Below the pieces are notes generated by a model, which did no database searches, was not told where the DNA came from, and saw only the letters and a program-made list of their open reading frames with translations. A stretch of DNA of 64,000 nt from Salipiger abyssi (GTDB lineage Bacteria; Pseudomonadota; Alphaproteobacteria; Rhodobacterales; Rhodobacteraceae): positions 1 through 64,000 of the forward strand of contig NZ_JAEKIS010000002.1 in NCBI RefSeq assembly GCF_017311415.1. Direction: 5' to 3'. Every line of letters starts with the position of its first letter. Within the stretch, counting starts at the first letter, position 1. Shown here piece after piece: positions 46,485-52,164 of this stretch. Both the position numbers and the translations under genes were made by a program.

Positions 46485-47648
46485 ATGTGGCGAAGCGTCG
46501 CCTCCAACGCGCTGACCTTTCTGGTGGTGCTGGTCTTCCTGTTCGGCGGTGTGCTGATCTGGGCGCAGAACGAGTATTCGGCGGAAGGCCCGCTGGATGC
46601 GGCGATCTGCCTTCAGGTCAATCGCGGCAGCAATTTCACCCGCGTCTCCGAGGATCTGGAGGGACAGGGCGCGATCTCGTCGGGCACGATCTTTCGCCTC
46701 GGCGCGGATTATGCCGACAAGACAGGGGATCTCAAGGCGGGCTCCTACCTGGTGCCCGAGCGCGCCTCGATGTCGGAGATCACCGAGATCGTCACCCGTG
46801 GCGGCGCCTCGACCTGCGGCACCGAGGTGGTCTACCGCATCGGCGTGACCCGCGCAGAGGTGCAGGTGCGCGAGCTCGATCCGTCCGTCGGGCGCTATGA
46901 GGAGGTGCTGGAATTCGATCCCGGCGCCGAAGAGATCCCGGCCGCCTATGAGGATTTCAAATCCGCTGTCGGCACCCGTTTCCGCATCGCGCTGGCCGAA
47001 GGCGTGACGAGCTGGCAGGTCGTCGAGGAGCTGAAACAGGTTGATGTGCTGGAGGGCGAGGTGGCCGAGCTACCCGTAGAGGGCTCGCTGGCGCCCGACA
47101 GCTACGAGGTGGTTGTGGGCGACGACCGCGCCGGGCTGATCGAGCGCATGCAGAACGCGCAGGAGGTCATCCTCGCCAATGCCTGGGCGAACCGCGCCGA
47201 TGGGCTGCCCTACGAGACGCCGGAGGAGGCGCTCACCATGGCCTCCATCGTCGAAAAGGAGACTGGCGGCGCAGAGGAACGCCCGCTGGTGGCCAGCGTT
47301 TTCGTCAACCGGCTAGAGCGCGGCATGCGGCTGCAAACGGACCCGACAGTGATCTATGGCATTACCCAGGGGCAGGGTCCGCTGGGGCGTGGGCTGCGCC
47401 AGTCCGAGCTTCGCCGCGAGACGCCCTACAATACCTATGTGATCGCCGGTCTGCCGCCGACGCCCATCGCCAACCCGGGCCGCGCCAGTATCGAGGCGGC
47501 GCTGAACCCGGCGGACTCCGATTACATCTATTTCGTCGCCAAGACCCTGGATCCTGCGGATGGGCACAATTTCGCGGAAACGCTCGACGCGCATAACCGC
47601 AATGTCGCCGCCTATCGCCGGCTCGAGGCGGAGCAGGCCAACCAGTAA
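46485..47648 (+). CDS. mltG: Endolytic murein transglycosylase MltG
   Basis: MltG cuts nascent glycan strands in the inner membrane and so helps set glycan length. The 387-residue protein has one N-terminal membrane helix (LTFLVVLVFLFGGVLIW), a LysM-like region and the YceG catalytic domain with MASIVEKETG, carrying the catalytic Glu, and YGITQGQGPLGRGL. There are zero bases between the fabF stop and this ATG, implying coupled translation. Confidence 0.95.
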   Translation: MWRSVASNALTFLVVLVFLFGGVLIWAQNEYSAEGPLDAAICLQVNRGSNFTRVSEDLEGQGAISSGTIFRLGADYADKTGDLKAGSYLVPERASMSEITEIVTRGGASTCGTEVVYRIGVTRAEVQVRELDPSVGRYEEVLEFDPGAEEIPAAYEDFKSAVGTRFRIALAEGVTSWQVVEELKQVDVLEGEVAELPVEGSLAPDSYEVVVGDDRAGLIERMQNAQEVILANAWANRADGLPYETPEEALTMASIVEKETGGAEERPLVASVFVNRLERGMRLQTDPTVIYGITQGQGPLGRGLRQSELRRETPYNTYVIAGLPPTPIANPGRASIEAALNPADSDYIYFVAKTLDPADGHNFAETLDAHNRNVAAYRRLEAEQANQ

Positions 47649-48669: not shown

Positions 48670-48694
48670 GGTGGGCAGGATTGCCCACCCTACA
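48670..48694. repeat. GGTGGGCA palindromic repeat, copy 4
   Basis: GGTGGGCAGGATTGCCCACC followed by CTACA, eight bases after the EamA stop codon. A second copy in the same direction follows at 48781. Confidence 0.7.
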
Positions 48695-48780: not shown

Positions 48781-48803
48781 GGTGGGCAGATTGCCCACCT
48801 TGT
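48781..48803. repeat. GGTGGGCA palindromic repeat, copy 5
   Basis: GGTGGGCAGATTGCCCACC followed by TTGTA, the same direction as copy 4, ending 30 bases before the promoter of the cysteine leader ORF. Confidence 0.65.
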
Positions 48804-48833: not shown

Positions 48834-48863
48834 TGGACAGGACGGGCGCGATGCCGCTATAGA
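48834..48863 (+). promoter_or_regulatory. Promoter of the cysS leader ORF, predicted leaderless
   Basis: TGGACA (48834-48839) and TATAGA (48858-48863) are 18 bases apart. The expected start point, seven bases after the -10 box, is the A of the ATG at 48870. No ribosome binding site precedes that ATG, consistent with a leaderless transcript. Confidence 0.6.
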
Positions 48864-48869
48864 GCCGCC

Positions 48870-48917
48870 ATGACCACGCAAGCGACCCTCATCCGGATTT
48901 GCTGCATTACCTGCTGA
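48870..48917 (+). CDS. Cysteine-rich leader peptide upstream of cysS (15 codons)
   Basis: ATG ACC ACG CAA GCG ACC CTC ATC CGG ATT TGC TGC ATT ACC TGC TGA encodes [15 protein letters not shown]. Three of the last five sense codons are cysteine, a rare residue, and the downstream gene charges tRNA with cysteine. The ORF starts at the predicted transcription start and stops four bases before a hairpin. This is the layout of amino-acid-responsive leader peptides such as those of trp and his operons, and of the leaderless Cys-rich small ORFs described upstream of sulfur genes in mycobacteria. Translation is not proven. Confidence 0.6.
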
Positions 48918-48921
48918 CATC

Positions 48922-48939
48922 TGTCGGGTCCTTCCGACA
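48922..48939 (+). promoter_or_regulatory. Hairpin of the cysS leader, loop complementary to the cysS ribosome site
   Basis: TGTCGG (48922-48927) and CCGACA (48934-48939) form a perfect 6-bp stem. The loop GTCCTT contains TCCTT, the exact complement of AAGGA (49006-49010) in the cysS ribosome binding site. A ribosome paused on the last Cys codon of the leader ORF would cover the left arm. No T-run follows, so control of translation or Rho access is likelier than intrinsic termination. Confidence 0.5.
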
Positions 48940-49017
48940 AACGGCGGGCCGGTCTTCTATTCCCATCCAGAACCGAAGTTGCTACTCCCGCCGCGACCCT
49001 GTGCCAAGGAGCGCGCT

Positions 49018-50394
49018 ATGGACATCTGGCTGACCAATTCCCGCACCCGCAAGAAGGAGCGTTTCGAGCCCATCGACGCGGAGAATGTGCGGATCTATGT
49101 CTGCGGCCCCACGGTCTATGACCGGGCGCATCTGGGCAATGCCCGGCCCGCCATCGTCTTCGACGTGCTGTTCCGGCTGATGCGGCAGGTCTACGGGCCC
49201 GATCACGTCACCTATGTGCGCAACTTCACCGATGTGGACGACAAGATCAACGCGCGGGCCGAGGCCTCGGGGCGCAGCATCGGCGAGATCACCGCCGAGA
49301 CCACGCAATGGTATCTCGACGATATGGCCGCCGTGGGAGTGATGCAGCCCACCCATATGCCGCGCGCCACCGAATATATCGCTCAGATGATCGCGATGAT
49401 CTCGGACCTGATCGAGCGCGGCCATGCCTATGAGGCCGAGGGCCATGTGCTCTTTGCGGTGGAGAGCTACACGCAATATGGCGCGCTGTCGGGCCGTTCG
49501 GTCGACGACATGATCGCCGGCGCAAGGGTCGAGGTGGCGCCCTACAAGCGCAACCCGATGGATTTCGTGCTGTGGAAACCGTCCTCGCCGGAGCTGCCGG
49601 GCTGGGAGAGCCCCTGGGGCCGCGGGCGTCCGGGCTGGCATATCGAGTGCTCGGCGATGAGCTACGAACTGCTGGGGGCAACCTTCGACATCCATGGCGG
49701 CGGCAACGACCTGATGTTCCCGCATCACGAGAACGAGATCGCCCAGAGCTGCTGCGCCCATCCCGAGGGCGGCTTTGCCAGGGTCTGGCTGCACAATGAG
49801 ATGTTGCAGGTCGAGGGCAAGAAGATGTCCAAGAGCCTGGGCAATTTCTTCACCGTGCACGATCTGCTGGAGGGCCATGACGGGTTGCCCGGCGTGCCGG
49901 GTGAGGTGATCCGTTTCGTGATGCTCTCGACGCATTATCGCCGACCGATGGACTGGACGGCGGAGAAGGCGGCGCAGGCGGAGGCGGTGCTGCGCAAATG
50001 GCGCGGGCTGGTGGACGGTGTCGAGGCCGGGCCGGTGCCCGAGGCGGTGCTGGCGGCGCTGGCCGACGATCTCAACACCGCCGGCGCGATTGCCGAGCTG
50101 CACCGGCTGGCGGGTGCCGGTGAGGCCCCGGCCCTGAAGGCCGGGGCGGGTCTGCTCGGCTTGCTGGAGCCGGAGCTGGGCGCCTGGGCCGAGGCCTCGG
50201 TGGATCTCTCGGGGCTGACGGCGCGGCTGGCGGAGCTGCGCGCACAGGCGATGCAGAGCAAGGATTTCTCCGAGGTGGACCGGATGAAGGCGGCGCTGAT
50301 CGACGCGGGCGTCGAGGTGCGCATGTCGAAAGCCGGGGTGGAGCTGCTGCCCGGCGCCGGGTTTGACGCGGCGAAGCTGGAGGGCCTGTCGTGA
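49018..50394 (+). CDS. cysS: Cysteinyl-tRNA synthetase
   Basis: CysS joins cysteine to its tRNA. The 458-residue class I synthetase has the zinc/cysteine site residue in [15 protein letters not shown] (Cys29, with the HIGH-like HLGN), a HENE zinc-ligand segment ([11 protein letters not shown]) and the KMSKS loop ([10 protein letters not shown]). The ATG at 49018 is six bases from AAGGAG. The 355-base region before it (48663-49017) holds repeats, a decayed gene end, and the candidate cysteine-sensing leader. Confidence 0.96.
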
Positions 50395-50400
50395 GGCCGG

Positions 50401-50446
50401 GCAACTCTTTTCGAAAAGAGTTGCAAATTCCTTCGAAGGAATTTGC
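50401..50446. repeat. Tandem palindrome element, copy 2
   Basis: Two perfect 24-base palindromes share two bases: one with arms GCAACTCTTTTC (50401-50424) and one with arms GCAAATTCCTTC (50423-50446), both centred on TTCGAA. The element starts six bases after the cysS stop, mirroring the position of copy 1 behind the DUF1499 gene. Confidence 0.75.
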
Positions 50447-50541: not shown

Positions 50542-52164
50542 ATGGCTAAGGAGCGCCTCTATCTCTACGACACCACCCTGCGCGACGGGCAGCAGACCCA
50601 GGGGGTGCAGTTCTCCACCGGGGAAAAGCTGCGTATCGCGGAGGCGCTGGATGCGCTCGGGGTCGATTATATCGAGGGCGGCTGGCCCGGCGCCAACCCC
50701 ACCGACAGCGCGTTTTTCGACACGGTGGAGGCGACGCGCGCCACCATGACCGCCTTTGGCATGACCAAGCGGGCCGGGCGTTCGGCGGAGAACGATGACG
50801 TGCTGGCCGCCGTGCTGAATGCCGGCACCAGGGCGGTCTGTCTGGTGGGCAAGACCCATGATTACCACGTCACCGCGGCGCTGGGGATCACGCTCGAGGA
50901 GAATATCGAGAATATCCGCGCCTCGCTTGCTCATATCGTGGCGCAGGGCCGCGAGGCGCTGTTCGATGCGGAGCATTTCTTCGATGGCTGGAAGGCGAAT
51001 GCACCCTATGCGCTGGAGTGCCTGAAAGCCGCCCTTGAGGCCGGTGCGCGCTGGATCGTGCTTTGCGACACCAATGGCGGCACGCTGCCGCATGAGATCC
51101 ATGACATCGTGAAAGAGGTGATCGCCGGCGGTATCCCCGGCGCACGGCTGGGCATCCACACCCATAACGACACCGAGAACGCGGTGGCGGGGTCGCTGGC
51201 GGCGGTGGATGCCGGCGTGCGGCAGATCCAAGGCACGCTGAACGGGCTGGGCGAGCGCTGCGGCAATGCCAATCTCACCTCGCTGATCCCGACGCTGCGG
51301 CTCAAGGAACCCTATGCCCGCGCCTATGACATCGGCGTGAGCGGCGAGGCGCTGGAGGGGCTGACTCAGACCTCGCGCATGCTCGACGAAGTGCTGAACC
51401 GCGTGCCGATGCGGCAGGCGCCCTATGTGGGGTCCTCGGCCTTTGCCCACAAGGCGGGGCTGCATGCCAGCGCCATCCTCAAGGATCCGACGACCTACGA
51501 GCATATCGACCCGGGCGCGGTGGGCAATCGCCGCGTCATTCCGATGTCGAACCAGGCCGGGCAGTCGAACCTGCGCCGCCGGCTCGCCGAGGCGGGGTTC
51601 GAGGTGGAGAAGGGCGATCCGGCGCTGCCGCGCATCCTCGAGACCATCAAGGCGCGCGAGGCCGAGGGCTATACCTACGATACCGCGCAGGCCAGTTTCG
51701 AGCTGCTGGCGCGGGAAGAGCTGGGCCGACTGCCGGAGTTCTTCGAGGTCAAGCGCTACCGGGTCACCATCGAGCGGCGCAAGAACAAGTATGACAAGAT
51801 GGTCTCGCTCTCCGAGGCGGTCGTGGTGGTCAAGGTCGACGGGGTGAAGAAGCTCTCGGTCTCCGACAGTCTAGATACCGACGGTCACGATCGCGGGCCG
51901 GTGAACGCGCTCTCCAAGGCGCTGGCCAAGGATCTCGGCCCCTATCAGGCGGTGATCGACGATATGCGGCTGGTGGATTTCAAGGTGCGCATCACCCAGG
52001 GCGGCACCGAGGCGGTGACCCGCGTGATCATCGACAGCCAGGATGGCGCGGGCCGGCGCTGGCAGACCGTGGGGGTGAGCGCGAACATAGTGGATGCGTC
52101 TTTCGAGGCGCTGCTCGACGCGGTGCGCTGGAAGCTGATCCGCGATTGCGGAGAGACTGCGTGA
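50542..52164 (+). CDS. cimA: Citramalate synthase
   Basis: CimA condenses pyruvate with acetyl-CoA to citramalate, giving a threonine-independent route to isoleucine. The 540-residue product has the DRE-TIM metallolyase start YDTTLRDGQQTQGVQFS, the metal site HTHNDTENAV and a C-terminal LeuA-type allosteric dimerisation domain (from about residue 400). The length and the DTTLRDGQQT motif fit the CimA rather than the LeuA branch. A strong AGGAGG precedes the ATG at 50542. Confidence 0.93.
   Translation: MAKERLYLYDTTLRDGQQTQGVQFSTGEKLRIAEALDALGVDYIEGGWPGANPTDSAFFDTVEATRATMTAFGMTKRAGRSAENDDVLAAVLNAGTRAVCLVGKTHDYHVTAALGITLEENIENIRASLAHIVAQGREALFDAEHFFDGWKANAPYALECLKAALEAGARWIVLCDTNGGTLPHEIHDIVKEVIAGGIPGARLGIHTHNDTENAVAGSLAAVDAGVRQIQGTLNGLGERCGNANLTSLIPTLRLKEPYARAYDIGVSGEALEGLTQTSRMLDEVLNRVPMRQAPYVGSSAFAHKAGLHASAILKDPTTYEHIDPGAVGNRRVIPMSNQAGQSNLRRRLAEAGFEVEKGDPALPRILETIKAREAEGYTYDTAQASFELLAREELGRLPEFFEVKRYRVTIERRKNKYDKMVSLSEAVVVVKVDGVKKLSVSDSLDTDGHDRGPVNALSKALAKDLGPYQAVIDDMRLVDFKVRITQGGTEAVTRVIIDSQDGAGRRWQTVGVSANIVDASFEALLDAVRWKLIRDCGETA

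Follow-up and report, generated by a model that had tools for sequence, protein, structure and literature searches.

The 64,000-nt stretch of DNA analysed here (hereafter the window), whose nearest named relatives are Rhodobacteraceae, carries upstream of cysS a short open reading frame (ORF) rich in cysteine codons, which raises the question of which amino acids such a leader would sense and which genes it would serve. Attenuators of the trp and his type combine control codons in a short leader with alternative RNA structures, the thrL leader reads both threonine and isoleucine, the trpL leader of S. meliloti holds Trp codons, and leaderless polycysteine leaders of mycobacteria are proposed sensors of Cys-tRNA before sulfur-assimilation genes. 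A preliminary description of the window had proposed a leader sensing charged tRNA-Cys for cysS and considered that no system of this kind was described for cysS in roseobacters.

This last statement was wrong, as the uORFC-8-2 motif, published in 2021 (PMC8632094, RNA Biol), comprises, according to the accessible part of that paper, 145 uORF examples located upstream of cysS and found exclusively in Rhodobacterales. It is depicted there with tandem Cys codons, mostly UGC and usually at codons 14-15, two stems, the first of which includes the Cys codons, and a U run, and a stalling-dependent read-through was proposed. The words isoleucine, cimA and leaderless are absent from the main text of PMC8632094, as far as it could be consulted. 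It was the only paper found under the name uORFC-8-2 in a literature search, most subscription papers being outside its scope, and within the same scope and the accessible texts no link of such leaders to isoleucine or cimA was found described. The window element shares with uORFC-8-2 the gene (cysS), the order, the AUG uORF and the tandem UGC codons, and differs by the position of the Cys pair (codons 11-12, as compared with the usual 14-15 in the published account). It is a member of this published motif, and the idea of a cysteine attenuator was right but not new. The present comparison would add the isoleucine content, the link with cimA, isoleucine-only leaders of cimA, leaders in Rhizobiales, a predicted leaderless start and a putative internal promoter; the Ile codons, the downstream cimA, the P0 helix and the possible internal promoter were absent from the preliminary description.

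The leader, its promoter and its conservation

The positions of the features discussed are collected in Table 1. The 15-codon leader with Cys at codons 11, 12 and 15 (the first two being a tandem UGC UGC at 48900-48905) and a sigma70-like promoter (P1), whose predicted start point is the leader ATG, are both present as first described. TGGACA and TATAGA are separated by 18 nt and followed by six bases before the ATG at 48870. Across 149 genomes, 110 have their best TTGACA-like hexamer beginning at -36/-35 relative to the leader ATG and 129 have TA at -13 or -12; from this position, the A of the leader ATG is the predicted transcription start, and the promoter position fits a leaderless translation of the peptide. 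A strict promoter scan, whose rule demands T as the final base of the -10 element, gave no site. Rfam covariance models, T-box or other, had no match at E values up to 1 between positions 47000 and 51000. Upstream of P1, the inverted repeat GGTGGGCAG(G)ATTGCCCACC occurs twice in almost identical form, at 48670-48689 and 48781-48799.

Table 1. Positions of the leader element, its putative signals and the neighbouring genes in the window
Feature	Positions	Strand	Basis or remark
P1 -35 element TGGACA	48834..48839	+	window letters; hexamer position conserved in relatives
P1 -10 element TATAGA	48858..48863	+	TA at -13/-12 from ATG in relatives
Leader ORF, Cys/Ile control codons	48870..48917	+	15 codons; stop TGA 48915-48917
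P0 5' arm GACC, start of leader	48872..48875	+	pairing of leader start with segment 2b
Segment 1 CCUGCUG, 5' arm of stop-codon hairpin (1:2)	48910..48916	+	pairing and fold analyses
Lineage-specific insert TGTCGG-GTCCTT-CCGACA in 1:2 loop	48922..48939	+	gap-length survey
Segment 2 CGGCGGG, 3' arm of 1:2 or partner of segment 3	48942..48948	+	pairing analyses
Segment 2b GGUC, P0 3' arm	48951..48954	+	pairing analysis
Pyrimidine-rich run UCUUCUAUUCCC, possible terminator tail	48953..48964	+	6 U of 12; overlaps putative P2 -35
Putative P2 -35 TTCCCA	48960..48965	+	by-eye pattern in leader-lacking or doubtful regions
Putative P2 extended -10 TGC-TACTCC	48980..48988	+	TTGNTA at similar distance from cysS with or without leader
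Segment 3 CCCGCCG, pairs with segment 2	48987..48993	+	covariation on alignment A1
cysS ribosome-binding site AAGGAG	49006..49011	+	window letters
cysS, cysteine--tRNA ligase	49018..50394	+	TIGR00435, 414 bits, cut-off 340
cimA, citramalate synthase	50542..52164	+	TIGR00977, 602 bits, cut-off 450

Among 192 regions upstream of cysS (24 named loci, 20 from the genus and 148 from the family, with G005 in both the genus and family sets and L181 not placeable), 149 contain an ATG-initiated ORF with at least two Cys among its last six residues. In a set of 173 regions, from which most genus repeats were left out, such an ORF is found in 131 when dinucleotide shuffles predict 1.3, which places it far beyond chance, and an ORF with at least two Cys and at least two Ile in 139 (0.5 expected from the same shuffles). 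Predicted Cys/Ile leaders precede cysS in most Rhodobacteraceae surveyed. The preliminary description had suggested comparing these upstream regions across the family for Cys codons and for a hairpin at 48922-48939: the codons are conserved, the hairpin is not.

Leader calls combined ORF rules with hand decisions; those of L123, L140, L176, L208, L212 and L230 were set by hand, L011 and L021 were later omitted, and a set of 166 leaders remained after ten were struck and one of them restored. Most of these (141/166) have 13 or 14 residues. Cys occupies codon -4 in 114 and codon -5 in 122 of the 166, encoded overall by UGC (437 codons) far more than by UGU (34), and of the 156 leaders with Ile at codon -3, 150 use AUU, a near-invariance hinting at a nucleotide constraint at this place. 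The residues following the start are dominated by Ile (30.6%) and Cys (22.5%), with Leu (1.8%), Val (0.9%) and Phe (0.7%) rare, in 149 leaders with genus repeats left out; codons -6 to -3 include Cys in 146 of these, Ile in 148 and both in 145. Searches of the genome that carries the window, with the leader peptide and with the RNA model, each gave a single match. The RNA covariance model, R1, built from 70 leader elements, matches 130 of 149 genomes of the order wherever the match lies relative to cysS, at a single place except in three. The second matches are weak (E 1.4e-5 to 2.8e-4; G420:C12:80514-80568, G460:C3:201405-201507 and G066:C33:621409-621476).

Association of the leader with cimA

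The gene following cysS encodes a citramalate synthase, which we take to catalyse the first step of threonine-independent isoleucine synthesis. Of 73 loci, 68 have it behind cysS in the same orientation, and three of the five misses are contig ends. In the window, the gap between the two genes contains tandem palindromes, GCAACTCTTTTCGAAAAGAGTTGC and AAATTCCTTCGAAGGAATTT (50401-50444), with no T run behind.

The adjacency survey covered 150 of the 197 family genomes with cysS. In 121 of them cimA adjoins cysS, 111 with a leader and ten without; it is located elsewhere on the cysS contig in two genomes without leader and absent from four others also without leader, and in 18 it falls outside the listed neighbourhood (15 with leader, three without). 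Four genomes with a leader and no cimA (G123, G158, G192 and G111) have a contig ending just after cysS and were set aside, as was G074, whose cimA sits at the edge of another contig. On this basis the leader is present in 111 of 121 genomes with adjoining genes and in none of the six with cimA elsewhere or absent (Fisher p 1.5e-6, a value ignoring relatedness, contig-end cases being out). If no case is set aside, the genomes with cimA absent or not adjoining comprise five with and six without leader; moving to the near group G168, whose cimA was counted as not next door but follows cysS in the same orientation at a distance of only about 1.8 kb, gives leader counts of 111/11 against 0/5. L139, L163, L187, L243 and L245 were scored leader-less by judgement and L245 may hold a leader. 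L181 was scored likewise though R1 matches its genome (G154), and enters neither column as its cimA is outside the listed neighbourhood. In G059, a family member with cimA far from cysS, no clear leader was found upstream of cimA.

Leaders of this kind also occur before cysS in Rhizobiales: MKTVICIICRKIIR in Ensifer and Rhizobium, MKTSFAICGICIIG in Mesorhizobium and MKTKCTIIACIITC in Devosia. They were found in 11 named genomes outside Rhodobacteraceae, and in all ten checked (L076 left out) cimA follows in the same orientation at a distance of 0.06 to about 3.2 kb, as seen within the locus in four, by reading along the stretch in four, where same-strand genes separate cysS from cimA, and by coordinates only in two (L038 and L048). 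The 16 leader-less genomes of this named alphaproteobacterial search, three of them Rhodobacteraceae, have cimA close in five and far or absent in 11. Over the 26 genomes, cimA is thus close in 10/10 with and 5/16 without leader (p 7e-4, relatedness ignored). A class survey with 28 readable loci found cimA within about 1 kb downstream in 14, of which two have a clear leader (one belonging to the family), three a possible one and nine none flagged. Together with the ten leader-less family genomes, and the five of 15 named genomes in which cimA is close and the leader missing, these nine indicate that the cysS-cimA operon is older or more widespread than the leader.

At L303-L306 (Rhizobium, Mesorhizobium and Devosia), same-strand ORFs with GGCQCGA motifs, presumably GFA-type, stand between cysS and cimA, with a further ORF that we take to be hydrolase-like at L304 and L306; given these additional same-strand ORFs, the regulated unit may be larger there. 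L265 (G320), from another family, has a longer Ile/Cys-rich ORF, MLTKNLLCIGIISLRGRIGCGAIICG, upstream of cysS and a cimA motif about 20 nt after it; L267 (G318), from yet another family, has the leader MKTAATIWCICCTIIIS before cysS and a cimA motif about 39 nt downstream.

Twenty regions upstream of cimA, nearly all apart from cysS, were fetched and 15 were readable. Ile-rich, Cys-free leaders were found in two, MNIINAIITKGLIISG (G224, L283) and MNPAHSIIQGLIISG (G347, L302, a Parvibaculaceae MAG), which have GLIISG in common, and the other 13 had no clear leader, weaker ORFs in L284 and L292 being dismissed by eye. A pattern search over 240 genomes returned a third such leader, MNIINAIIIKGLIISG (G498, L339), before a cimA-type gene, and one three-mismatch match in G217. 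These peptides possibly represent a separate isoleucine attenuator of cimA. G498 is of the same genus as G224, and a single lineage may account for the Ile-only leaders, which slightly lowers the odds of the broader two-amino-acid proposal made below.

Pairings and signals between the leader and cysS

Helix P0, the predicted pairing of the first leader nucleotides with segment 2b, has -8.5 kcal against -6.1 for permuted pairs in 151 leaders, a difference reached in 0/2000 permutations (z -14.7; relatedness is ignored in all permutation tests given here) and retained in 66 non-redundant leaders (z -10.9). No such signal was obtained with leader nucleotides 15-28 (z -0.4), loop 3b (+0.7) or the ribosome site (+4.3); the value of -3.0 for the 14 nt upstream of the leader is a warning of shared composition. 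The register of P0 varies among leaders: in a fixed register the helix is weakly supported, 57.8% of cells are paired and the covariation of the combined structure is matched by 15/500 shuffles, sliding the partners by one column raises covariation from 0.155 to 0.204, and taking the best of five registers gives 5.0 of 6 pairs against 4.4 permuted (0/500). In the window P0 amounts to only four pairs plus a small extension. A masking of the cysS ribosome site by segment 2b was considered and rejected (z 0.05), 2b pairing with the leader start instead.

Hairpin 1:2 joins the last two codons and the stop to GCGGG and exceeds shuffles in stability by a mean of 2.7 sd (0.7 for a control region). 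Its arms pair in 88.9% of the cells of A1, a sequence-based alignment in which the window is joined by 69 of the 113 relatives prepared (alignment A2 holds 51), whose rows come from leaders passing a stem filter (151/155). It shows no covariation (429/500 shuffles as high), as its 3' arm hardly varies; a looser duplex test gives z -5.2. Stem 2:3 is paired in 84.6% of A1 cells with a covariation of 0.127 against 0.068 in shuffles (0/500), one outer pair being G-C in 27 of the 70 rows and C-G in 17, with no pair in a further 22. In a hand-anchored alignment (122/151 rows kept, 113 non-redundant) 2:3 is present in every row, but the arms were chosen to pair, so the support for this stem is taken from A1; the duplex value of segments 2 and 3 (z -13.9) is biased likewise. 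RNAalifold returned no structure on a gappy alignment of 155 rows. In predicted folds from the leader to 2b, P0 occurs for 137 of the 151 leaders, 1:2 for 121 and the two together for 112, P0 enclosing the codons and 1:2 following them, while full-length folds of the same leaders contain 1:2 in 96 and 2:3 in 24.

Behind the stem by a few bases comes the pyrimidine-rich run, with a mean of 6.5 U per 12 nt over 151 leaders. A terminator scan gave no canonical intrinsic terminator here, and stem 2:3 was dropped as a terminator in itself because no U run lies behind it. Between segments 2 and 3 the leaders share a consensus, TTTCCA, 17 nt, TAAGCC, with TG before the -10 and the spacing usual for P1, which may constitute a second promoter (P2). 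In the 12 nt before its -35, leaders have a mean of 3.9 T and ten leader-less relatives a mean of 2.9. Among 22 leader-lacking or doubtful regions, a TTT..-TTGNTA pattern was seen by eye in ten, 29-43 nt before cysS, was absent in six and partial in the rest; the TTGNTA element of leader-bearing regions is about 40 nt before cysS. We infer from this pattern an internal promoter giving a baseline expression of cysS, and, should P2 be strong, the attenuator may matter little for this gene.

A proposed attenuator of two amino acids and its alternatives

We judge it probable that the element is a ribosome-mediated attenuator of the cysS-cimA operon, within uORFC-8-2, which would read the charging of tRNA-Cys and likely that of tRNA-Ile: the leader is richer in Ile than in Cys and cimA lies downstream, which points to two amino acids being read. 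We lean towards the broader proposal that one peptide reads both for the operon and that its codons follow the genes, with both kinds of codon at linked cysS-cimA pairs, only Ile codons at some separate cimA genes and no leader where cysS is without cimA. The leader would depend on cimA no less than on cysS, in Rhodobacterales as in Rhizobiales. Comparison among genomes supports the leader, its position, its Ile/Cys make-up, the link with cimA and the P0 and 2:3 pairings; termination, stalling and the direction of control are inferred, along with the activity of P2 and the co-transcription of cysS and cimA.

The P1 transcript would begin at the A of the leader ATG and be translated without ribosome site. 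On a ribosome-free leader, the 5' end would pair with segment 2b, while segment 2 would take up the final two codons together with the stop codon, and P0, 1:2 and the pyrimidine-rich run would jointly stop transcription from P1. Taking usual ribosome footprint lengths, a ribosome waiting at the early Ile codons would cover the P0 arm, and a ribosome stalled at Cys -5/-4 or at Ile -3 the 1:2 arm; in both cases the stop structure would be lost and the polymerase would read on to cysS and cimA. Segment 2 would then pair with segment 3, preventing the stop structure and perhaps leaving the cysS ribosome site open, P2 within the element supplying baseline cysS. Termination is the least certain step, given an imperfect U run that overlaps P2, and 2:3 cannot be a classical antiterminator, segment 3 being transcribed after the presumed stop.

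As in classical trp/his attenuators, control codons for the regulated amino acid stand in a short leader ORF; unlike in these, no antiterminator would form before the terminator, segment 3 being downstream of the pyrimidine-rich run. The window leader further differs from them and from thrL in being apparently leaderless and in preceding a tRNA synthetase gene together with a biosynthetic gene of another amino acid. With the mycobacterial leaders, which are leaderless as it appears to be, it shares, by description only, a Cys-rich short ORF and a proposed Cys-tRNA sensing, those leaders belonging to another phylum and having no cysS-cimA; the candidate cys leaders of mycobacteria have no obvious terminators in the part of PMC1262725 consulted. 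The trpL leader of S. meliloti is alphaproteobacterial and leaderless, as the window leader appears to be, and differs as an attenuator of trpE whose 14-residue peptide, peTrpL, has an additional role in antibiotic resistance, according to the accessible text of PMC10117765.

The main rival to termination is a translational control of cysS through segment 3, a serious though minority possibility, in which P0 and 1:2 would leave segment 3 available for covering the ribosome site of cysS, and a stalled ribosome would lead to 2:3 and an open site. Segment 3 does pair with the ribosome site better than permuted (z -3.9), no clean U tract is present, and the predicted openness of the site goes from 0.417 to 0.529 when segment 3 is left out, an increase seen in 118 of 150 leaders, with no control for the removal of sequence as such; the rise nevertheless exceeds 0.2 in only 40 of 150, with a fall of that size in four. 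A masking of the same site was proposed in the preliminary description, the loop UCCUU of the 6-bp hairpin at 48922-48939 being complementary to AAGGA and a stalled ribosome opening the hairpin. Of that proposal, the leader sensing charged tRNA-Cys for cysS probably stands, and the opening mechanism does not. The hairpin is present in the window, but a stop-to-stem gap of its size (22-49 nt) exists in only 11 of 155 aligned leaders and it is absent by eye in 13 of 20 genomes of the genus. Moreover, the native pairing of the post-stop segment with the ribosome site is weaker than permuted (z +3.6), for which reason the match with AAGGA looks like chance. As a conserved mechanism this switch is not tenable, and we give it practically no credence; what relatives retain in its stead are helix P0, hairpin 1:2 and the alternative stem 2:3. 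The leader RNA of the window is about 15 nt longer than usual and the hairpin sits in the 1:2 loop, where it brings the arms of 1:2 near each other, a more economical explanation than the masking of a ribosome site some 70 nt distant.

A cysteine-only attenuator, as published in PMC8632094 according to its accessible part, would assign the regulatory role to the tandem Cys; the Ile codons would be mere filler by which the RNA stays poorly structured, and cimA a passenger. The frequency of Cys at codons -4 and -5 (114 and 122 of 166) and the nearly constant AUU at -3, as if its nucleotides were fixed, agree with it. We nonetheless find it unlikely, as Ile is the commonest residue while the possible fillers Val, Leu, Phe, Tyr and Lys are rare, none of the six family genomes with cimA not adjoining has a leader once contig-end cases are out, and Ile leaders devoid of Cys precede two or three cimA genes. 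That the conserved sequence would be mainly the cysS promoter P2, with the hairpin arms as promoter features at the DNA level, appears quite improbable: the retention of TTT..-TTGNTA in ten of the 22 leader-lacking or doubtful regions speaks for it, the coding pattern and the P0 pairing are left unexplained, and P2 is compatible with an attenuator, so that both can hold.

If Ile is also read, as in the attenuator preferred here, a single short peptide would tie together the supplies of two amino acids that are unrelated, within an operon that is common in Rhodobacteraceae and also present in other Alphaproteobacteria. The citramalate pathway would thereby gain a proposed regulator at cimA, and a reason would be offered for cysS and cimA staying together. 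The natural series of codon swaps, with Cys and Ile, Ile only or neither, makes this two-signal idea directly testable.
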